Below, one piece after another: positions 1 through 26,805 of a stretch of 64,000 nt of DNA. Numbering within the stretch: position 1 is the first letter of the stretch; the number at the start of each line of letters is the position of its first letter. The notes beneath the pieces were generated by a model. That model saw only the letters and a list, made by a program, of their open reading frames with translations. It ran no database searches and was not told the origin of the DNA. The position numbers and the translations under genes were made by a program. This DNA comes from Methylocystis sp. L43 (GTDB lineage Bacteria > Pseudomonadota > Alphaproteobacteria > Rhizobiales > Beijerinckiaceae): positions 1-64,000 of the forward strand of contig NZ_JADNRA010000028.1 of NCBI RefSeq assembly GCF_015709525.1, in the 5' to 3' direction.

Positions 1-1043
<1,043 letters not shown>

Positions 1044-1214
1044 TTTCACCTCCATGACGAGAGCCGCGGCGGGCCGGGCGTCGTCGCCAATATGTATGCA
1101 TCCCCCCGCCGGAGCCGTAGATGCCTCGACTAGCGCAGGATGAGATTAGAAGTAATCTAGGTCAGGATGGCGCAATAGCCAAACAGGCGTCATAATTCGC
1201 CAAAAGTTGAGCGG

Positions 1215-2681
1215 ATGAAAAAGATTGTCATCGCCGGCCTAAATGAATGCCTGGGCTCGGCTTTCTCGGGACTGACGGATGTTTTGACGCTCGCGCGGCG
1301 CGCCGTCGTTCGCGCCGCCGCGCCCGCTCAAAACGCCGAAAATCCTTTCTATGTCGTTACGGCAAGCGCGGACGGCGAGTCGATCCGCGATCGCGCGGGA
1401 GCGATCTTCCCCGTCGCGGCGCCATTCGAGGCCATTGCGACCTGCGACGCGATCATCGTGCCGAGTTTCTGGCCCGACGAGGACGGAAAGCCGCCGGACA
1501 TGTCGCGCTTTAGCGCGGCGGCCGCCTGGCTGCGGCGCCACCACGCGCGCGGGGCGCTGATCGCAGGGTGCGGATCGGGCGTTTTTCTTCTCGGCGAGGC
1601 GGGTCTCCTGGATGGCCGCCGCTGCACGACAAGCTGGTGGCATCATGAAGAATTGAAGCAGCGGTATGCGCGAATCGACGCAGCCTGGGGCGCGCGGCTG
1701 ATCGAGGACCGTCGAGTGGTCTCCGCCGCTGGCCCGCTGTCGTGGATCGACGTCGCTCTGCATGTCGTTCGCGCGCTTTGCGGAGTCGATGCGGCGCGAA
1801 TTGCGGCGGATGTCACCCTGGGCGAGGCGGCGCCCGTCAAAGGCGCGCAGCGCGGCCAGACCGTCTACAACGCCGCGGCGCTGAACGAAGGCGCCGGCGC
1901 CTTTCTGACCGACGCCGAGCGAATCATCCGGCAATCCGATGCGGCGATGAGCGCTCAGGAGCTGGCGCGGGCTCTTTCGACGTCCGAGCGAACGCTGCAT
2001 CGCAGGCTCAAACTGGCCTCCGGAGAGTCGCCCAAGACCTTCATCGATCGGATACGGGTCGAGACCGCGCGCATGTTGCTGGAAACCAGCGCCAAGCCGG
2101 TCAAGGAACTCGCCGCCAGCGCCGGCTTCGCCGACGAGGCGAGTTTTCGGCGCGCGTTCCGGCGTTTCGCCGGCATGGCGCCGAGCGCCTATCGGGTGTG
2201 GGCGCGCGCCAGAAGCCAGAACAAAGGCCAGCTTTTCGCATTACGCAAGGAAGCGGAAATCATTCCGAAAATGCTGACGACCATTTTCGACGCCTGCGTC
2301 AATGGCGTCACGCTCGCAGACCCCGAACTCGAAGATTCGCCGATCATTTACGCCAATCGACCGTTTATGCGAATCACCGGCTATGAACTCGACGAGATTA
2401 TCGGACGCAACTGCCGCTTTCTTCAGGGCGGCGACCGCGACCAAGAGGGAAGACTGCGGCTGCGCGAAGCGATCCGCAATCGAGAACAGATCGAAGTCAC
2501 GCTGCGCAATTATCGCAAGGATGGCGCGCTCTTTCATAACACGCTCAACATCACGCCTCTGTTCGACGCCGACGGCCGCCTCCTCTATTTCCTCGGCGTG
2601 CAATATGACGTCAGCACTCAGGTGCAGGCCGAGCTGGAAATCGGCGACCTTAAAGCGAAGCTTATGTCTTTGACGGATTAA
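1215..2681 (+). CDS. DJ-1/PfpI-AraC transcriptional regulator with C-terminal LOV photosensory domain
   Basis: Predicted DNA-binding regulator of 488 residues with three modules. Residues 1-185 are a GATase1/DJ-1-like domain as in GlxA/FtrA regulators, with a nucleophile-elbow cysteine in AGCGSG (C119). Residues about 235-332 are the AraC double helix-turn-helix. Residues about 355-470 are a LOV domain. The LOV core GRNCRFLQG carries C400, the residue that forms the flavin adduct in this family. R401, Q404, R417, N432, N442 and Q463 sit at exactly the offsets of the flavin contacts in oat phototropin LOV2. A short helix (VQAELEIGDLKAKL) follows the LOV core and could be a signalling helix. 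Seen: domains and residues. Known: such LOV domains bind FMN and respond to blue light. Inferred: light controls DNA binding by the AraC part. The target genes are unknown; the ftsH promoter and the nearby quorum-sensing genes are candidates. LOV domains fused C-terminally to an AraC regulator are unusual in my experience. Confidence 0.9.
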   Translation: MKKIVIAGLNECLGSAFSGLTDVLTLARRAVVRAAAPAQNAENPFYVVTASADGESIRDRAGAIFPVAAPFEAIATCDAIIVPSFWPDEDGKPPDMSRFSAAAAWLRRHHARGALIAGCGSGVFLLGEAGLLDGRRCTTSWWHHEELKQRYARIDAAWGARLIEDRRVVSAAGPLSWIDVALHVVRALCGVDAARIAADVTLGEAAPVKGAQRGQTVYNAAALNEGAGAFLTDAERIIRQSDAAMSAQELARALSTSERTLHRRLKLASGESPKTFIDRIRVETARMLLETSAKPVKELAASAGFADEASFRRAFRRFAGMAPSAYRVWARARSQNKGQLFALRKEAEIIPKMLTTIFDACVNGVTLADPELEDSPIIYANRPFMRITGYELDEIIGRNCRFLQGGDRDQEGRLRLREAIRNREQIEVTLRNYRKDGALFHNTLNITPLFDADGRLLYFLGVQYDVSTQVQAELEIGDLKAKLMSLTD

Positions 2682-2911
2682 TCGTCATTGCGGCGCACTG
2701 ACGCTGAAGCCCAGCCGACTAACCGTTGTTTAAGCCGGGATTACGGGCTGCAAGCCGAATCAGCGCGGCGCTCTTTTGAGCGGTGTGGCAGGTGCATCGC
2801 AAAACCTTTTCCTACTTGGCATATTTCTAAGTCGGTGCGCTAATTTGTCGCGCCTGCCTCAGATGCGGCTCTTCGTTTCCTCAATGGGCAGCGAGCCACA
2901 GGACAAACGCC
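2682..2911. other. Intergenic stretch downstream of the LOV regulator
   Basis: No convincing gene is visible here. A frame from 2776 (96 codons) crosses the stretch but has no recognisable domain and overlaps the better small-peptide candidate in another frame. AT-richer sequence at 2813-2850 (TTGGCA followed by TAATTT at a long spacing) could hold a promoter for the peptide, but the match is weak. Confidence 0.3.
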
Positions 2912-2995
2912 ATGAACGCGATCTCTGCGATTCTCTCAATTTTCGCCGCCGCCGCCGCTATCACGCTTGCGATCACAGCCTTCGTGAACGCCTGA
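2912..2995 (+). CDS. Possible 27-residue hydrophobic membrane peptide
   Basis: A short frame begins ATG AAC GCG and ends TGA, encoding a peptide that starts MNAISAILSIF and ends ITAFVNA. It is almost wholly hydrophobic and could form one membrane helix, with no charged residue anywhere. A weak GGAC sits about 8 bases upstream. It lies between the LOV regulator and the quorum-sensing genes. No function is assigned. It could be a small membrane peptide, a type I toxin-like peptide or chance coding in GC-rich DNA; composition and clean ends favour a real peptide slightly. Confidence 0.4.
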   Translation: MNAISAILSIFAAAAAITLAITAFVNA

Positions 2996-3105
2996 CAAAT
3001 CGCGCGCGCACATACGAAGAAGCGTCGCTCGCCGCCCCGCGGCGAGACGCCGACGCCCCGCATTAGTCTATTTCCCTTGGATCGCTCGCCCGCGAGACGT
3101 TGTGC

Positions 3106-3759
3106 TCATGACCGGCAGCCCGTCTGGCGTAGTTTTTCTAGATCGGCAAGATTGATCGGCGGCGCCGTGGCGCCGGCGAGACTTTTGAACGGCGCGTTCA
3201 TCGCAGCGCCGACCTCATAAAGCACAGCGCACATGTCGGCGCCGTCGATGCGCATGGACCGCGCTAATGTTTCGCCTGCGCAACCGCGCTGCGACAGCAG
3301 GCGATGCATCGACCTGTCGAAAACGCCGATCACATGCGTCAGCGCGGCGGCTTCAGCGATTGCATTCAGCGCGACGCCGAGCTGACCGATGGTGCGATCG
3401 CTGGCGACATCCGTCGCGCGAAAATCTCCGGCGGCGCGGAGCGTCAAACGACTTGCTTCCCAAATCAGCGGGCTTTCGACGCGTATGCCATCCGGCGCCG
3501 CTCCCGCGAAGGCATCGTTCAACATCGTCACGCCGGCAGTCGGCAAAACCCGCAGCGCTCCCGCGACGCATTCCGTTTCGTCGAGGGCAAGTACGTAGAG
3601 CGGATCCAGCGAATCAAAATAGTCGACGACCGCCAGCCGATGAACAGCGCCGGACGGCCGACCGGCATGCGCGTGAGCAGCGCCGAGGCGCAGGCCATAC
3701 ATCTCGTCCATGAGTCGGGGAAAGAGCGCGCGCGATTCGCCAGGCAGCAGCGCGATCAT
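3106..3759 (-). CDS. Acyl-homoserine-lactone synthase, LuxI family (divergent)
   Basis: 217 residues. It should make an N-acyl-homoserine lactone signal from SAM and an acyl carrier (acyl-ACP or acyl-CoA). Compared with Vibrio LuxI, D46, D49, R70 (in LRVLPT), F84, E101 and R104 (WEASR) are conserved at the same numbers, and R24 matches R25. F29, W35 and E44 are not conserved (A, R and V here). The start codon overlaps the stop of the upstream luxR gene as ATGA, so the two are translationally coupled. The loss of three family residues suggests an unusual acyl group or altered kinetics; this is inference. The family assignment itself is firm. Confidence 0.85.
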   Translation of the reverse strand: MIALLPGESRALFPRLMDEMYGLRLGAAHAHAGRPSGAVHRLAVVDYFDSLDPLYVLALDETECVAGALRVLPTAGVTMLNDAFAGAAPDGIRVESPLIWEASRLTLRAAGDFRATDVASDRTIGQLGVALNAIAEAAALTHVIGVFDRSMHRLLSQRGCAGETLARSMRIDGADMCAVLYEVGAAMNAPFKSLAGATAPPINLADLEKLRQTGCRS

Positions 3760-4613
3760 CGCTCCCGCCGATCGACCGAAGAAAGGTCCGTAGGAGCGGA
3801 CTCGATCGCGGAACGCGGCCGTTCGACTCCGACGCGAATCAACCCTGTCTGGCAGGCTTCCTCAATCGCATCGTCGACGGAGGCGGCGTGAAGCCTGGCG
3901 CGCGCCGCTTCGAGCCAGAAGCGCACGGCAGTTGCACGAGCGCCGAGCGCGATTCCGATCTCATGATCGTCAATTCCTCGGGCCTTGAGGCGCAGGCAAG
4001 CCAACTCGCGATCCGACAGCCGAACGTCAACGTGGGATTCTCCTTTGAAAGCGTCTCGCACGCTGACGTGAAAGATCGCGCTCATGACCATGAGCCGGCG
4101 AATCAGGTCATGGCGCGGCGACAGCAGGGATGAAGCGTCTTCAGGGCAGCAGACGCTAAACAGCCCATATTCGCCGCTTCGGCCGCGCAGGGGAATGGAG
4201 ACGCCGTCGGCGCCGAGGTCGAGCTCCAGCGCCTCGCCCAGGAGTTTTCTAACGACCGGATCGTCGCGATCCAGCAGGCGCCAATCGATCGGCATGATCC
4301 CCCCGAAGCCCGCGCGTACGACGGGCTCGAGGTCGACACGGCGCGCCTGGACATGGGATTTTCGCCACGACGCCGCATGAGCGGCGGAGAGCAGAGGTCG
4401 GTCGGACAGGCCCGTCGGGACGTTGAAGGCGAGGTAAGCGACATTCGCGAGGCCTGTCGCCCGCAGGAACTCGCTGAGGAAGCTGTTGGGAATAGGGATT
4501 CTGTCGGCGCGCGTGAGCCGATCGATGAGATCGAAAACATCTTCGAAATACACGCGACGCCTGTGGCCGGAAACAATTATCAATTTGATACAGCGTCGCC
4601 CGAAGTGAGGCAA
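3756..4613 (-). CDS. LuxR-family quorum-sensing transcriptional regulator
   Basis: 285 residues. An N-terminal autoinducer-binding domain (about 22-180) is followed by a LuxR helix-turn-helix (about 198-258, LSDRELACLRLKARG through EEACQTGLI). In TraR/LuxR terms W57 (W83), P71 (P97) and W85 (W111) are kept. Y61 is H87 and D70, which holds the lactone amide, is E96. The protein probably binds the lactone made by the coupled synthase and regulates the pair itself. A 20-bp perfect palindrome lies 24 bases upstream of the start. A later GTG start (residue 14 or 21) cannot be excluded. The tail after the helix-turn-helix is longer than usual (about 27 residues). Confidence 0.88.
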   Translation of the reverse strand: MPHFGRRCIKLIIVSGHRRRVYFEDVFDLIDRLTRADRIPIPNSFLSEFLRATGLANVAYLAFNVPTGLSDRPLLSAAHAASWRKSHVQARRVDLEPVVRAGFGGIMPIDWRLLDRDDPVVRKLLGEALELDLGADGVSIPLRGRSGEYGLFSVCCPEDASSLLSPRHDLIRRLMVMSAIFHVSVRDAFKGESHVDVRLSDRELACLRLKARGIDDHEIGIALGARATAVRFWLEAARARLHAASVDDAIEEACQTGLIRVGVERPRSAIESAPTDLSSVDRRER

Positions 4614-4637
4614 TGCGCAGGCCGCGAAGATAGCAAA

Positions 4638-4657
4638 AGGGGGGCTTAAGCCCCCCT
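4638..4657. promoter_or_regulatory. 20-bp perfect palindrome upstream of luxR
   Basis: The sequence AGGGGGGCTTAAGCCCCCCT reads the same on both strands. Its length equals that of a lux box, and it sits 24 bases from the luxR start. It does not match the lux-box consensus. On the minus strand it is followed by TTTTGC, so it could instead be a terminator or attenuator hairpin with a TTAA loop. Confidence 0.45.
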
Positions 4658-4683
4658 GTAAGACGAAACGGGGCGTGAGCCCT

Positions 4684-4721
4684 TTCCAAAAGAAAGAGCC
4701 CGGCCGATCGGCCGGGCTCTT
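4684..4721 (-). terminator. Rho-independent terminator of the porin gene
   Basis: A 28-bp perfect palindrome at 4694-4721 (arm AAGAGCCCGGCCGA) is followed on the minus strand by TTTCTTTT. It lies 22 bases beyond the porin stop codon. It would insulate luxR from porin transcription. Confidence 0.85.
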
Positions 4722-4743
4722 ATATTTCGAACGTCAGGCTGGA

Positions 4744-5682
4744 TCAGTATTTCGCAACAATCGGGGCATTGCCCCAGTTGAAGTGATAGTTGACGCCAGC
4801 GCGCACAATGTTTCCGTTGAAGCGAGTCTGCGACTGCGAAACCACTCCGGCGACAACGCTACCCGGGAAGAGTGTATTGCCCAAGGTTGTCAAGAGGCCC
4901 GCCGAGTAGCTGACATTGCCGAGATCGTAATACAGATATTCGACCTTGGCGGACCAGTTCGGCATGAACATCCACTCAAGTCCGGCGCCCGCCGTCCAGC
5001 CGACGCGCGTGTCGGAAAAGGTTCCAGACGAGAAAGCAGAGCTAGCGAGACATCCCGCCGGGAACTGAGCGCAGTCATTGTTGAACTGCGCGATGCCGGT
5101 CGACACCGAGACGCCGCCATAGGCGAGACCGCCTGTGCCGTAAACAAGCATGGTCGGGGTGAAGAGCCAGCCGAGTCGGCCGCGAACCGTCCCGATATAG
5201 TCAAGACGCTTCGAGGTCGTGATCGCGGTCGTAACGATTTCGCTGGCGGCGATAAACGGAAATGCGCCCGCCGCGGTAACCGACGTCTTGTTGCTGTTGC
5301 TGCTGGCGACGCCTTGGATGTCAGCCTCGACGCCCGCGACAAGGCGGCCGCCCCAGAACTGCCAATTATAGCCAATCTGGCCGCCACCGATGAATCCGCT
5401 GGTGTTGCCCTGCGAAACGCCCGAAGCCCCGAGCGCGGAATACGCGGCATATAAATTGGCCGCGCCGACTCCGGGGAGGGAGGAAATCGGGGCTGACGAG
5501 GTCCAGATGTTGTTGCTGTTGCCCCATGTCCCGCCGGCGTTCAGACCGACGTAAAAGCCGCTCCACAGCGGGGGCGGCGGCAGCGGGGGCGGCGGAGGAG
5601 CCTTGTAGCTGGGAAGATCGGCCGCCAAAGCCGAGCCCGTCAGCGCAACCATAAGAGCGGCGACGGAAAGAGCTCTTTTCAT
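4744..5682 (-). CDS. Outer membrane beta-barrel protein (Omp25/31-like porin family)
   Basis: 312 residues from the ATG at 5682, which has GAGGA 6 bases upstream. The Sec signal peptide MKRALSVAALMVALTGSALA ends in an AxA-type cleavage site. A proline-rich linker (about residues 25-38) and an eight-strand-type barrel with WSGFYVGLNAGGTWG near its start follow. The barrel ends VNYHFNWGNAPIVAKY. Such proteins are abundant surface proteins in Hyphomicrobiales; the transport role is unproven. An in-frame extension to 5769 exists but would put the signal peptide inside the protein. The gene has its own strong terminator. Confidence 0.88.
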   Translation of the reverse strand: MKRALSVAALMVALTGSALAADLPSYKAPPPPPLPPPPLWSGFYVGLNAGGTWGNSNNIWTSSAPISSLPGVGAANLYAAYSALGASGVSQGNTSGFIGGGQIGYNWQFWGGRLVAGVEADIQGVASSNSNKTSVTAAGAFPFIAASEIVTTAITTSKRLDYIGTVRGRLGWLFTPTMLVYGTGGLAYGGVSVSTGIAQFNNDCAQFPAGCLASSAFSSGTFSDTRVGWTAGAGLEWMFMPNWSAKVEYLYYDLGNVSYSAGLLTTLGNTLFPGSVVAGVVSQSQTRFNGNIVRAGVNYHFNWGNAPIVAKY

Positions 5683-6091
5683 CTGTGTCCTCGTTGCTTG
5701 AGGCGGAAAATCTTCGCCCGATTGACTTGTTGAAACCTTCAGCGATCGCTCGCCATGCACTGCACTCAATCAGTCGAGGCCGCGCACAGTCAATGCAAAA
5801 GCCTCTGGTTTCACAGGCGCTCGGTTTGAATCTGGACGGGTGTGGCGCCGGCGCCACATCTCTCGCTCACGACAGAGGTTCGGCGACATGTAGACCGGTG
5901 ACGCCCACGGCGAATGGGTGGCCGTAAGCCGCGATTCCCCAACGACTAACAGCGCCAGGGGATATTCCCGTCGCGGCTCGAGCAGGGAGCAGCCGAGAAG
6001 GGTGATCGGCGCGCGCGAAAAGCGTAAAGCCTCGCCCTGCTATGAACGTGATTGAAGGCGATGGCTCACAGCAAGCAGGCTTTGAAAGCCG
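5683..6091. other. Intergenic stretch upstream of the porin
   Basis: No gene is supported. It must carry the porin promoter and untranslated leader. A TTGACT hexamer on the minus strand near 5785-5790, followed 17 bases later by ATTGAG, is a weak sigma-70-like candidate. The rest (5850-6091) shows nothing I recognise. Confidence 0.4.
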
Positions 6092-6643
6092 CTAACCATC
6101 GGCCAGGCGCGCGATCTCGGCGCGGCGCCAAACCTCTTTTGAGCCCTCCGCCGCCTTGTGCTCCAGCATCCGCGCGGCGACCAGATCGAGTGGTCCCACG
6201 GGACAAATTCCCATCCACTCGAGCCGCTGCGTGGGCGCAAGCGACCCCAGTACGCGCGAACAGCTCTTGCCGAAATGACGCAGAGGCAGAAGCAGGAGTT
6301 CGAGTTCCGCCGCATCCCTGTCCGGCGCTGTCCGAGCGCGCGCGACTAGCGGCGTTTGGGCGTCGATAACCCGGCGCATCGCCTCAGCCATCGCCTCCTG
6401 CCGCTGCGCTCGCCACCAATCAAGGAAACGGCGTCCCTTCTGCTCGCGCTGCCAGAGGGCGTTAACCCGAGCGCCACAGAGCCGGAGTGGCAGTCGACGC
6501 TCCGGGTCCACTTCGATGATGAATATGTCGGGCAGAATATGGCGAATCGCGACGGGATCGATTTCCGCTCGATCCGGCGCCGCCCGTTCTCCCTTCAATC
6601 GACCCCAATAGTCGTGAAGCTCCCTAGTGCCCGGTAATATCAT
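6092..6643 (-). CDS. PAS_5 family sensor-like protein
   Basis: 183 residues matching the stand-alone PAS_5 type common in alphaproteobacteria. It has the N-terminal pattern REL.DYW..LKGERAAPDRAEIDP, followed by a PAS fold (residues about 30-140) with the LRLCGARVNALW strand-helix segment. There is no output domain, so it probably works through a partner or as a small cytosolic sensor. Function unknown. It reads away from the rhomboid gene and is alone on its strand. Confidence 0.7.
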   Translation of the reverse strand: MILPGTRELHDYWGRLKGERAAPDRAEIDPVAIRHILPDIFIIEVDPERRLPLRLCGARVNALWQREQKGRRFLDWWRAQRQEAMAEAMRRVIDAQTPLVARARTAPDRDAAELELLLLPLRHFGKSCSRVLGSLAPTQRLEWMGICPVGPLDLVAARMLEHKAAEGSKEVWRRAEIARLADG

Positions 6644-6978
6644 TCAATTCCGCCCGACGCTCGCGCGCCCCCGCCCAGAATTGGGACGCCTGCCCCCGCC
6701 GCGTTCCAATTCTTGCTGAAGAGAGCAGCGATCGTGCCATCGGAGCGGCAACCTCCAGGATGGCGGAGATTACGACGGCCAGGACTCCGCAACCTATGAG
6801 TGAAACCAACAAGCTGAGCCGGGCGGAAGCTGTCTCGAGCGACCCGCTGGGCGCTCACGAATCAGCGCTTGCCCTCGCCGCCAGGCGCTTCAAATCGGGA
6901 CGCTGGCCGACGCCGGTCGCGCTAGATTAGCATTGAGGCTGCGCGGGCCCCTGCCCAGCAAAACGAACAGGAGCGAAC
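6644..6978. other. Intergenic region with two weak overlapping small-ORF candidates
   Basis: On the minus strand a TTG-started frame at 6624-6812 encodes 62 residues with a hydrophobic N-terminus and would overlap the PAS_5 start by 20 bases. On the plus strand, 6760-6930 encodes 56 residues ending FKSGRWPTPVALD. Neither has a good ribosome site, and at most one is likely real. The rhomboid promoter must also lie here. Confidence 0.25.
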
Positions 6979-7677
6979 GTGCCCGCAAGGCGAGAACGAA
7001 TTTTCAATCTCCCGACAGTGACCAAGACGCTGATCGTCGTACTGACGGCGACGCAGTTCGTCGTCGCGTACGGCCCTTTGGAATTCTCAAACTGGCTGAT
7101 ATCGACTTTCGCCTTCATCCCGGCGCGCGTGACGCTTGAAGGCGGCGCCGAATACGCCACCATGCTCACCTACTTTTTTTTACACGGCGACTGGACGCAT
7201 CTCATCGTGAATGCGTTAGCGCTTGCAGCATTCGGCACGCCGGTCGAACGTCGATTCGGTTCGGCGCGCTACCTCCTCTTTCTCGCCGCGAGCGCTTTCG
7301 CAGGCGCGTTGTTGTTTCTTGCGCTGCACCCTTACGAAATCGCCCCTGTCGTGGGCGCATCAGGCGCAATCTCAGGAACAATGGGGGCAATTGTGCGTTT
7401 CGCATTTACGCCAGGAGCGCGGCTGGCGGACAAGCGGCGCAGCCCCCGGGCGCCATATGACGAGGAATCGCATTCCACTTCGCTGTCGCAACTGCATTTG
7501 AACCGACAGGCGATGTTTTTCCTTGTCGCATGGTTAGCGGTGAACGTGCTTCTTGGCGCCTTTCCCCAGGCGGTCGGCGTGTCGAGCGCGATCGCATGGG
7601 AAGCGCACGTAGGAGGGTTTCTGTTCGGCCTGCTCTTTTTCAGCTTCTTCGATCGCGCGGGTCGGCATGCCCTTTAG
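6979..7677 (+). CDS. Rhomboid-family intramembrane serine protease
   Basis: 232 residues from a GTG start with AGGAGC upstream. About six membrane helices are visible. The catalytic serine is S128 in GASGAISG and the catalytic histidine H210 in EAHVGGFLFG. The HGDWTHLIVN segment (residues 69-78) is the conserved oxyanion-side loop. It cleaves membrane proteins within the bilayer; substrates are unknown. A charged cytosolic insertion (about residues 146-172) separates the serine helix from the next one. A CBS-domain gene follows after 60 bases and may be cotranscribed. Confidence 0.9.
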   Translation: MPARRERIFNLPTVTKTLIVVLTATQFVVAYGPLEFSNWLISTFAFIPARVTLEGGAEYATMLTYFFLHGDWTHLIVNALALAAFGTPVERRFGSARYLLFLAASAFAGALLFLALHPYEIAPVVGASGAISGTMGAIVRFAFTPGARLADKRRSPRAPYDEESHSTSLSQLHLNRQAMFFLVAWLAVNVLLGAFPQAVGVSSAIAWEAHVGGFLFGLLFFSFFDRAGRHAL

Positions 7678-7737
7678 TTCGCAGTAACGCCCGTCGGCTG
7701 GCGAGGGAGGCCGGTCGCGAGCGAAAAGGAGGGCCAG

Positions 7738-8169
7738 ATGACGATCTCGAACATACTCGCAGAGAAAGGAAGAGAGGTGGTGACTGCGAGCGCCGACACG
7801 ACGCTGCAGCAGGCCGCTCAGCTGATGATGCGCTATCGAATCGGCGCGCTCGTCATTCTGGACGACAGCGGCCGACTGGCCGGACTGATCGCTGAGCGCG
7901 ACATTGTGTCGGCGGTGGCGCTCGACGGGCCGGAGGCGCTGACGCAACGCATATCTGCGTATATGCAGCCCAGCCCTCAGCCGGCGAGAGAAGACGACGC
8001 CGTCGAGAACACGATGCGCGTGATGACCATCGAACGGCGCCGGCATATTCCCGTGATCCGGGAAACGCGCCTCGTCGGCCTCGTGTCGATCGGCGACGTG
8101 GTCAAATACCGCATTCGCGTCATCGAGGAAGAGCACCGATCGATGCGCGAATACATCGCCCAAGCCTAG
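7738..8169 (+). CDS. CBS-domain protein
   Basis: 143 residues consisting of two CBS motifs (about 7-62 and 75-133), the first with TLQQAAQLMMRYRIGALVILDD and the second with MTIERRRHIPVI. Stand-alone CBS pairs bind adenine nucleotides and act as energy sensors or regulatory subunits. The ribosome site GGAGGG lies 6 bases upstream. It is convergent with the patatin gene with an 8-base gap. The partner is unknown. Confidence 0.88.
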   Translation: MTISNILAEKGREVVTASADTTLQQAAQLMMRYRIGALVILDDSGRLAGLIAERDIVSAVALDGPEALTQRISAYMQPSPQPAREDDAVENTMRVMTIERRRHIPVIRETRLVGLVSIGDVVKYRIRVIEEEHRSMREYIAQA

Positions 8170-8177
8170 GGCCAAGC

Positions 8178-9233
8178 CTAAGGACCAGGCGGGGCCGAGA
8201 GCGGGATGTGGGCGAAGATGTTGGGCAGCGCGCGCTTCGTCGCCTCGCGCCCCACATGGATCAGCTGATCAGCCTTGTGGAAGTCGAACATGCCGACTTC
8301 CTCCAGCCGCGCGGTGATCGTCGCGTCGGGCGGGTCGCCAGCCAACCGCGAACGCAGGATGCGATCCTGGATGATGTTGAAGGCGTCGATCATCGCCGTG
8401 GCGACGTTCGGCGCATCGCCCGGCTGACGATCGAAATAGCGGGGCAGGAACCGATCGACGAAAGATGCGTCGGCCTTCTCCCCGAACGGCCCGGCCTCCG
8501 CGGCCTGATGCAGTGCAGTAGGATCGTCGCGGATGACGCGCGCGCGATACATCGTGTCGGCGGTGACGTTCACGGCGATCACATATTCCGCGCCGAGCGC
8601 GCGGCACACGGTGACCGGCACGGGATTGACCAGTGCGCCATCAAAGAGCCAGCGATCGCCAATACGCACCGGCTCGAAAACGCCCGGCAACGCGTAAGAT
8701 GCGCGGATGGCGAGCGATAGGGAGCCATGTTGCAGCCACACCTCGTGGCCCGTCCCAACCTGAGTCGCCACCGCCGCGAAGGGTATAGGCAGCTCCTCGA
8801 TCTCCACGTCTTCGAGCTCCTTCTCCAGAGCGGACCGCAGCCGTTCGCCAGTGATGAGGCTGGCGCCGGAGAAGGAGAGATCCATCAAGGTGAAGACGCG
8901 CCGCTTGGTCAGCGTGCGGGCAAAGGCTTCGATCTGATCAAGCTTGCCGGCGGCGTAGCATCCGGCGACCACCGCGCCGATCGATGTGCCTGCGATGACG
9001 TCCGGCTTGATGTCATGGGCGGCGAGCTCGCGCAGCACGCCGATGTGCGACCAGCCGCGCGCCGCGCCGGCGCCGAGCGCCAGCCCGATCGTCGGCTGAC
9101 CGCGTCTTTGCCGTTTGGCCTCGGTATCCGCCTTGCGTACGAGGGTCGTCGGAGGAGCTTGTGGTTCGTCCGTCATCGCGCCAGCCGCCTCGGCATCGGG
9201 AAGTTGAGGGTTGCGTGAGCGTAGCGATAACAT
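8178..9233 (-). CDS. Patatin-like phospholipase/esterase (RssA-like)
   Basis: 351 residues with the serine-aspartate dyad of patatins. S84 is in GTSIG, D198 in DGALVNP, and the glycine-rich oxyanion loop GAGAARG lies at 54-60. No signal peptide or membrane helix is seen, so it is probably cytoplasmic or peripheral. It hydrolyses acyl esters of lipids; the true substrate is unknown. The ATG at 9233 has GGAAGG upstream; an alternative ATG at 9176 would shorten it by 19 residues without touching the domain. It follows hisI on the same strand with a 115-base gap. Confidence 0.9.
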   Translation of the reverse strand: MLSLRSRNPQLPDAEAAGAMTDEPQAPPTTLVRKADTEAKRQRRGQPTIGLALGAGAARGWSHIGVLRELAAHDIKPDVIAGTSIGAVVAGCYAAGKLDQIEAFARTLTKRRVFTLMDLSFSGASLITGERLRSALEKELEDVEIEELPIPFAAVATQVGTGHEVWLQHGSLSLAIRASYALPGVFEPVRIGDRWLFDGALVNPVPVTVCRALGAEYVIAVNVTADTMYRARVIRDDPTALHQAAEAGPFGEKADASFVDRFLPRYFDRQPGDAPNVATAMIDAFNIIQDRILRSRLAGDPPDATITARLEEVGMFDFHKADQLIHVGREATKRALPNIFAHIPLSAPPGP

Positions 9234-25758: not shown

Positions 25759-26049
25759 ATGCGCAGACGTCGATCGAAAATGAACAAGCTTTTCTCCGAC
25801 ACGCTCAAGATGAGCTTCGTGGCCAATCAGGTCATCGGCTTGCGGCTGATGAAGATCGCCACCGGCGGCGCGCATGGCAAGCGCGAAAGCGACCTGATGG
25901 TGAGCGAAAAGCTCGAAGCCGCGGCCGAGGCCAGCCTCGCGGCCGCGATGAGCATGGCGACAGGACAACCGCATCGCGCCGCCGAACGCGCGCTCGCCGT
26001 TTACACGAAGCGGGTCAATGGCAATCTAACGCGACTGTCGAAGCGCTGA
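25759..26049 (+). CDS. Conserved small helical protein of unknown function
   Basis: 96 residues; an ATG at 25780 (MNKLFSDTLKMSF) is an equally good start. The sequence is wholly helical, with VANQVIGLRLMKIATGG followed by an Ala-rich helix and a basic tail ending NLTRLSKR. It recalls short phasin-like or PHA-associated proteins of alphaproteobacteria, but I see no decisive motif. Its 3' end overlaps the convergent gene by 24 bases. Confidence 0.6.
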   Translation: MRRRRSKMNKLFSDTLKMSFVANQVIGLRLMKIATGGAHGKRESDLMVSEKLEAAAEASLAAAMSMATGQPHRAAERALAVYTKRVNGNLTRLSKR

Positions 26050-26634
26050 CGGAGACGACTTGTCTTGGGCGAACCGTGGCCGGGGCGCCGCGCGCTTGCG
26101 CCGCCATATCCCCAGCGCGCAGCCAGCCCCCACAAGCGAGAGCACGCCGAACGCGGCGGACCATTCAGCCCCCTCGCCCACCGAAAAATCATACTGCCCG
26201 ACATATTCCTTGGCGCCGTCGTCGCTGGTCGCCCTGACGAGAGCGACATAGCTTCCGTCGCTGACGAAATTATGCGTGAAGCTTGTCGTGCCCTTGTCCG
26301 CCAAATATTTCTGTGGCGGCAAAACGGCGACGGTGTTGGCGTCGAGATCGTCGCGCCAATCGGCCTGACCGACATTGCGTAGCACGCGGATTTCGATGTT
26401 CATGTCGCGCAGCTCGATCTGCCGCGCGTCGAGGATGATCATCGTCGGACCGAGCGTCGGCACATGCCGGCAGAATATCTCGTCGGTCTGATTTTCTTGA
26501 AAAGCGCTGAACATCATTTGCGTCGGTCCGACGCTCATCACGCAATGGCGTGGATGTTCCGCCCTGATCTGCGCCCGAGCGATGTTGACGCATACGCAGG
26601 CGAGAAGCGCGGCGAGCAGAAGTCTTCCCGACAT
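26026..26634 (-). CDS. Secreted or periplasmic protein with C-terminal membrane helix, unknown function
   Basis: 202 residues. A Sec signal peptide (MSGRLLLAALLACVCVNIARA) is followed by a beta-rich domain of about 120 residues. A C-terminal helix (AAFGVLSLVGAGCALGIW) and a basic tail complete it. This layout fits a periplasmic domain anchored at its C-terminus. Two cysteines (in RHCVMS and IFCRHV) may pair. I do not recognise the family with confidence. Confidence 0.6.
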   Translation of the reverse strand: MSGRLLLAALLACVCVNIARAQIRAEHPRHCVMSVGPTQMMFSAFQENQTDEIFCRHVPTLGPTMIILDARQIELRDMNIEIRVLRNVGQADWRDDLDANTVAVLPPQKYLADKGTTSFTHNFVSDGSYVALVRATSDDGAKEYVGQYDFSVGEGAEWSAAFGVLSLVGAGCALGIWRRKRAAPRPRFAQDKSSPSALRQSR

Positions 26635-26646
26635 CGGACCCTCCGG

Positions 26647-26805
26647 TCATGGCGCGCGAGACCTTCGGCTCGGCGCCGTCGACTTGCCGCCAATAAAAGC
26701 ATCCAAGGCCGCCGCCCCCGTTAAATGCGCCAAGCTTTCAAGCTGCCGCCAATCCGGATTTTGACAAAGAAGCGATCTGGCCAAAAAGCGGCCAGAATTC
26801 GCCAT
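26647..26805 (-). CDS. Doubtful 52-residue ORF downstream of the ABC exporter
   Basis: ATG at 26805 has GGGAG eight bases upstream, in frame to a TGA. The product starts MANSGRFLARSLLCQNPDW and has no recognisable domain. It fills the gap between the ABC exporter and the secreted unknown on the same strand. It may be chance. Confidence 0.25.
   Translation of the reverse strand: MANSGRFLARSLLCQNPDWRQLESLAHLTGAAALDAFIGGKSTAPSRRSRAP

Follow-up and report, generated by a model that had tools for sequence, protein, structure and literature searches.

What might a DNA-binding protein with a built-in blue-light sensor control in a methanotroph? The question is raised by a gene close to the edge of a contig of Methylocystis sp. 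L43 (NZ_JADNRA010000028.1), the first 64,000 nucleotides of which (the window) were analyzed here (Table 1). We consider it fairly probable that the product is a one-component blue-light regulator controlling its own gene, ftsH, and a stand-alone pmoC gene through a predicted operator with 21-bp phasing. The first-pass annotation had already suggested that the gene encodes a one-component regulator, with a DJ-1/PfpI domain, an AraC-type helix-turn-helix (HTH), and a C-terminal LOV domain following one another; Pfam matched this order, and the one-component reading is supported by our sequence analysis. The DNA-binding domain was recognized as HTH_18 and also by PF00165 (6.5e-10), with no match to the LuxR-type HTH (GerE) among families up to E 0.01, while the C-terminus matched PAS_9 (residues 373-467, 1.9e-20), PAS and LOV matches together spanning residues 353-475. 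The best NCBIfam match was FtrA (NF006902; 150.6 bits, 5.8e-44), but the curated cut-off is 425, so the regulator is not FtrA; the YtvA family (NF052652) was matched by the LOV part alone (147.7 bits), below its curated cut-off of 250. Rfam returned nothing at gathering threshold within positions 900-5000 of the window. The AlphaFold model of the regulator (mean pLDDT 65.6, mostly below 65 in the LOV part) is the basis of no claim made here.

Table 1. Coordinates of the features discussed, numbered within the window.
Feature	Position	Strand	Basis or remark
DJ-1/PfpI - AraC HTH - LOV regulator, 488 aa	1215..2681	+	ORF from ATG; Pfam, PDB matches, orthologue alignment
DJ-1/PfpI (GATase1-like) domain, residues 43-186	1341..1772	+	Pfam PF01965, 8.7e-11; nucleophile position is Gly120
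AraC-type DNA-binding domain, residues 250-327	1962..2195	+	Pfam PF12833, 5e-23
LOV domain including N-cap and C-terminal helix, residues 341-488	2235..2678	+	Colinearity with short LOV, invariant residues
Predicted operator GCCAAA-N15-GCCAAA, direct half-sites 21 bp apart	1178..1204	+	10 bp before the regulator ATG
Inverted repeat AGATTA-GAAG-TAATCT, ftsH/regulator gap	1143..1158	.	Exact in 9/20 aligned rows, by eye
ftsH (second copy), truncated at contig edge	3..1055	-	Inner ATG at 1043; divergent from regulator
LuxI-type autoinducer synthase	3106..3759	-	PF00765, 1.4e-10; convergent with regulator
LuxR-type autoinducer-binding regulator	3756..4613	-	PF03472, 7e-16
Second predicted operator GCCA-N17-GCCA	26780..26804	+	146-170 bp before start of gene 26026-26634
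Candidate further target, 202-aa protein	26026..26634	-	No Pfam match above cut-off

The top PDB matches of the C-terminus were 'Sensory box protein' 7r5n (5.2e-33) and 3sw1 (1.6e-32), which we take to be Pseudomonas short LOV proteins, PpSB1-LOV and PpSB2-LOV being presumably the relevant comparators. Oat NPH1-1 (2v0u) aligned through chain residues 4-122 with regulator residues 354-472, two segments of equal length (3.9e-25). Seven residues had been said to reproduce the spacing of the oat LOV2 pocket, and C400, R401, Q404, R417, N432, N442, and Q463 do stand at spacings of 0/+1/+4/+17/+32/+42/+63, their AsLOV2 counterparts presumably being C450, R451, Q454, R467, N482, N492, and Q513. These seven residues, together with N399, F402, and L403, are identical in all 21 full-length Methylocystis orthologues, which span 63-100% identity, and the agreement is therefore far beyond chance. 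The motif NCRFLQ (residues 399-404) includes the adduct cysteine, Cys400, kept in 21/21, so the claim of a complete LOV pocket holds for every residue named.

LOV-containing one-component light regulators are exemplified by EL222, in which LOV comes first and is joined to a LuxR-type HTH, whereas here LOV is last and the HTH is of the AraC type. The order and partner had accordingly been taken as new, a suggestion ruled out by McLOVn-TF from Methylocystis (El-Arab et al. 2015; PMC4416707), described with the same amidotransferase/AraC - HTH - LOV order in the same genus and matched to our protein by this order. As reported in the text of that paper, the McLOVn-TF LOV fragment (residues 337-490) bound flavin, gave C4a adduct spectra with 130 s recovery, and was dimeric in the dark, while the full-length protein was insoluble (PMC4416707). 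Because this orthologous fragment showed a flavin adduct photocycle, the photoactivity forecast from the sequence is very likely right; the invariant residues and the orthologue together make the regulator itself very likely photoactive in blue light.

An architecture search had been proposed in the first-pass annotation; it recovered the full three-domain gene in 21 of the 39 Methylocystis genomes (among the matches listed, some of these genomes being incomplete). In a second genome collection, orthologue carriers include Methylocystis rosea SV97, M. sp. H62, M. suflitae NLS-7, and M. sp. B8. No AraC-LOV fusion was seen elsewhere among the matches listed for 385 drawn alphaproteobacterial genomes (E up to 1e-20): outside the own genome, the earliest start is at query residue 42 (a single match, in G692), and thus none of these matches covers the whole HTH and LOV. 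In 298 genomes of the family outside the genus, the matches listed at E 1e-40 comprised just two, a relative lacking LOV (G127) and a match confined to LOV (G239); around the former, no pmoC was recognized by eye among ORFs of at least 170 aa. Genome G005 carries, at C1:2866642-2867001, a 134-aa remnant frame corresponding to residues 3-61 and 430-488 (90-91% identity), an apparent internal deletion of the regulator gene that retained the operator and ftsH.

The own genome also encodes a stand-alone 150-aa short LOV protein (contig C31), which aligns with regulator residues 341-488, N-cap and C-terminal helix included (92/148 identical), and three LOV-less GATase1-AraC paralogues, with which residues 3-342 share 50-52% identity. 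Given the colinearity with the short LOV, the simplest reading of these sequences is that a whole short LOV was joined to the C-terminus of a GATase1-AraC regulator. The fused domain retains the N-cap and C-terminal helix of short LOV proteins but is attached to a DNA-binding regulator; GATase1-AraC regulators (FtrA/GlxA-like) share the N-terminal DJ-1/PfpI-like domain and the AraC HTH, to which the present protein adds LOV while lacking the nucleophile cysteine of the paralogues. Competitive dimerization, in which the short LOV heterodimerizes with the regulator and sets its activity (El-Arab et al., PMC4416707), fits the presence of such a close short LOV in this genome and the dimeric state of both LOV forms in that paper, but the text of the paper contains no heterodimer (PMC4416707); we regard the idea as doubtful, and it would complement rather than exclude control of ftsH and pmoC by the regulator.

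A second, GATase1-like input had likewise been suggested for the N-terminal domain. In the orthologue/paralogue alignment, the DJ-1 nucleophile position is Gly120 in 21/21 orthologues and cysteine in 7/7 aligned LOV-less paralogues, and Cys119, one residue earlier, is present in 19/21 orthologues. Because the nucleophile has been replaced throughout, the enzyme-like part of the suggestion is unlikely to be correct, and a role of the domain in dimerization or ligand binding is possible.

The neighborhood of the regulator points to the likely targets. ftsH adjoins the regulator in all ten relatives of the second collection that hold the regulator N-terminus, and in relatives with longer contigs the regulator gene is divergent from ftsH, which is followed by pmoC (regulator <- -> ftsH -> pmoC). 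On the ftsH side, pmoC was found at 10/10 LOV loci with enough contig (nine at 2.3-2.5 kb, G002 at 7.4 kb), a count that rests on part of the PmoC matches, those listed; the remaining 11 LOV loci have no more than 1.4 kb of contig on that side. ftsH lies between regulator and pmoC in all six genomes searched for it (G002, G003, G009, G012, G013, and G015), and no pmoA follows the ftsH-linked pmoC at nine of the ten loci, nor in G005, the contig of G025 ending there. The regulator-adjacent ftsH is a second copy, since another ftsH of G013 follows tilS (identified by eye). Contig C24 of the own genome breaks off within a pmoC whose downstream gene content is, by eye, that of the stand-alone pmoC of G013. 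Because this pmoC shares with G013 a 165-aa gene and the genes after it, the own genome probably has ftsH followed by pmoC next to the window, ftsH and pmoC repeats having broken the assembly; the promoter of the ftsH-linked pmoC was not found in the own assembly and is taken as likely to fall in the gap. The 165-aa gene stands conserved right after the stand-alone pmoC in both places (L067 6045-6542 in G013; L078 8060-8557 on own contig C24). In G001 (L111), which is without the regulator, pmoC follows the tilS-linked ftsH (tilS by eye), and this tilS-ftsH-pmoC arrangement is perhaps the older state. The LuxI/LuxR pair of the window (3106-4613) scored far under the NCBIfam cut-offs.

LOV-less relatives of the regulator are also found beside pmoC. 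Among the matches listed for the genus, a pmoC match lies no more than 500 bp from 28 of the 42 close LOV-less paralogues; 23 of these pairs are divergent with 180-235 bp between the matches and five are tandem, and the other 14 paralogues were left out of the operator counts. The search for pmoA covered 12 genomes, and a comparison of coordinates showed no pmoA beside a paralogue-linked pmoC in them. ftsH occurs next to such a pmoC on G002 C7, as remnants on own contig C8, and, provided the contig is circular, on G012 C4. One regulator family is thus found beside pmoC and ftsH in different arrangements, and the HTH domains of the paralogues share 53-57 of 88 residues with that of the regulator. 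On own contig C8, two LOV-less paralogues lie side by side at a stand-alone pmoC, with ftsH fragments beyond (L011 5058-7400).

A candidate binding site connects these promoters. In 20 aligned regulator/ftsH gaps, a nearly fixed block containing GCCAAA-N15-GCCAAA precedes the regulator start codon; in the window it lies 135-161 bp before the inner ftsH ATG. A divergent regulator with direct half-sites phased by 21 bp is the classical AraC layout, in which the half-sites lie about 21 bp apart; at the predicted targets of the LOV regulator, 21-bp direct repeats are conserved as candidate binding sites. No sigma-70-like match was found in the ftsH/regulator gap, and the inverted repeat located there is possibly the site of another regulator.

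The core GCCA-N17-GCCA was present in 21/21 regulator/ftsH gaps, in 11/11 promoters of ftsH-linked pmoC, and in 21/23 divergent gaps between LOV-less paralogue and pmoC (the core-free ones being in G009 and G012 C6), compared with 1/11 regions before a pmoC with pmoA behind it (main operon) and 0/5 tandem paralogue-pmoC gaps. It was also absent before a further stand-alone pmoC (G015 C3:352296) and from G013 245000-245400, before a pmoCAB2-like operon. A single core, oppositely oriented, lies 230 bp upstream of a fourth pmoC in G013. The sets scored comprised 20 of the 21 LOV promoters (A3), nine ftsH-linked pmoC promoters (A4; G005 with its remnant and eight of the ten intact loci), 21 of the 23 divergent paralogue gaps (A5), and 12 upstream regions taken as pmoCAB1 (A6; 11 with pmoA behind, G015 C3 without); L035, G010, G025, G007 C5, and G033 C241 were checked singly outside A3-A5, and all contain the core. 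In dinucleotide shuffles, the per-sequence chance of a core was 0.8%, 1.8%, and 1.7% for A3, A4, and A5, and 3.9% for the 12 longer control regions. The full GCCAAA-N15-GCCAAA is exact in 17/20 regulator gaps, 1/9 ftsH-linked pmoC promoters, and 4/21 paralogue gaps. Over spacings of 5-32, N17 alone was common in the regulator/ftsH and ftsH-linked pmoC sets; the paralogue set A5 also repeats N29 (18/21), N8 (10), and N13 (7), and its GCCA-N29-GCCA suggests a third half-site. Every scoring sequence has a copy with TGGC on the ftsH/pmoC sense strand, L033 having one additional, reversed copy. Ahead of pmoC, the predicted site lies at a distance of 93-119 bp in G013 and 124-150 bp on own contig C8.

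Five exact copies of GCCAAA-N15-GCCAAA occur in the own genome, one at the regulator and one in the gap separating the C8 paralogue from its pmoC. For one of the four copies other than that at the regulator to lie within 300 bp upstream of any of the three paralogues, the probability is about 0.0009, a rough figure calculated after the fact. The N15 spacing is not enriched genome-wide: among GCCAAA pairs counted over 26 spacings, it accounts for 5/60 in the own genome and 4/36 in G013. Across 39 genomes, the pattern gave 114 hits versus 24 for the reversed pattern, a reversed word being a weak control; 27 of the 114 were placed by coordinates, at LOV-gene starts (18), remnants (3), paralogue/pmoC gaps (5), and the ftsH-linked pmoC of G015 (1). 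Because orthologous promoters share ancestry, the support comes from the agreement between promoter classes and from the orientation, not from the number of sequences.

The same counts could be read differently: the operator may be real but serve mainly the LOV-less paralogues or another regulator, the LOV protein regulating only itself or acting on distant genes. The paralogues do stand directly divergent from pmoC, and G005 keeps both the operator (2866599-2866625) and the pmoC site with a mere remnant of the LOV gene, a retention that also fits a recent loss of the regulator. Yet the predicted operator is found at 21/21 intact LOV genes, and G001, which has neither the regulator nor a close paralogue (best regulator-family match 3.3e-23), shows no core across 11 kb around its ftsH-pmoC pair, the proximal TGGCGAC half-site being kept there (by eye; one case). 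We therefore judge this alternative unlikely and retain control of ftsH and pmoC by the LOV regulator.

One more gene may be a regulator target, as judged from its upstream sequence. The site at 26780..26804 has the common orientation relative to the gene at 26026-26634, whose product is related to a 221-aa protein encoded directly after pmoC on own contig C8 (L011 8473-9138; 44% over 128 aa, 3e-33), neither product reaching the Pfam cut-off. G009, G010, and G013 retain the site, with diverged flanks in G013, and a counterpart of the gene was seen in G009 and G013; in G003, a site lies 78-102 bp ahead of the likely start of a relative in another setting, and stretch L129 of G012 contains no core. 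With seven copies in the window against 2.9 expected, the core is not specific by itself, and because this class was found via the site, it is a lead rather than an unbiased count.

Control by the LOV regulator could proceed as follows. Under blue light, the LOV domain would form a flavin-cysteine adduct, as its invariant residues lead one to expect. As predicted from the conserved sites, a regulator dimer would occupy a pair of direct half-sites spaced by 21 bp in its own promoter, where they also lie upstream of the divergent ftsH, and would do likewise in the promoter of the stand-alone pmoC that follows ftsH. It would most likely activate ftsH and pmoC from upstream and repress its own gene, like AraC, light setting its activity via the LOV dimer. 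The LOV-less paralogues would act at other pmoC genes through sites of this type.

The signal itself might be other than light. The N-cap cysteine Cys361 is invariant in 21/21 orthologues, and, according to the text of PMC4416707, such a cysteine is tied to oxidative-stress signaling in fungal LOV proteins, so that the domain could sense redox state or oxygen stress via flavin or Cys361, light being incidental. The adduct cysteine Cys400 is, however, equally invariant, and a photocycle operates in the orthologous LOV fragment (PMC4416707), which makes such a sensor rather improbable. That the true target is the convergent luxI-luxR pair, i.e., light-gated quorum sensing, is very improbable: both genes were found beside the regulator in 7/10 relatives but not in 3/10, they point towards the regulator and thus share no promoter with it, and no core occurs on either strand at 1202-8637.

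For blue-light control of ftsH and pmoC, a plausible but speculative purpose would be the replacement, aided by FtsH, of subunit C damaged by light in the membrane methane monooxygenase (pMMO). In such a scheme, which we put forward tentatively as having a minor share of the probability, blue light would trigger pMMO maintenance by calling up a dedicated FtsH and a spare subunit C, the paralogues reading other cues at further pmoC genes through the same operator; the circuit would be comparable to the way FtsH drives the renewal of photosystem II. It has long been known that light inactivates ammonia monooxygenase, which is related to pMMO, and that recovery requires new enzyme; in Nitrospira inopinata, activity was inhibited by blue and green light of wavelengths below 550 nm, as described in the text of PMC9797979. 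A light sensor driving a membrane protease and a spare subunit would make sense. In strain SC2, a monocistronic pmoC1 - ftsH1 pair, the same pair as at the regulator loci, was described, and the authors proposed that it might check whether the enzyme is correctly folded (PMC3794950); the main text of that paper contains no occurrence of AraC, LOV, or blue light.

In the main text describing McLOVn-TF (PMC4416707), pmo, ftsH, and methane do not occur, and relative to that paper the predicted operator and the link to pmoC-ftsH are new. Our literature search, which had most subscription journals outside its reach, found no report tying the regulator to pmoC or ftsH, and no scheme of a light-driven protease with a spare subunit for methanotrophs. 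To our knowledge, no regulator acting directly on the transcription of pMMO genes is known from these methanotrophs. The promoter comparison is new evidence suggesting that a kind of protein known since 2015 is part of an ftsH-pmoC module, to which a common direct-repeat operator would tie it. With a defined regulator, a predicted operator, and a target set, the job of this known kind of protein becomes testable, and the regulator offers a natural AraC-LOV switch for optogenetics. If true, the proposed control would connect sunlight to the upkeep of the methane-consuming enzyme.
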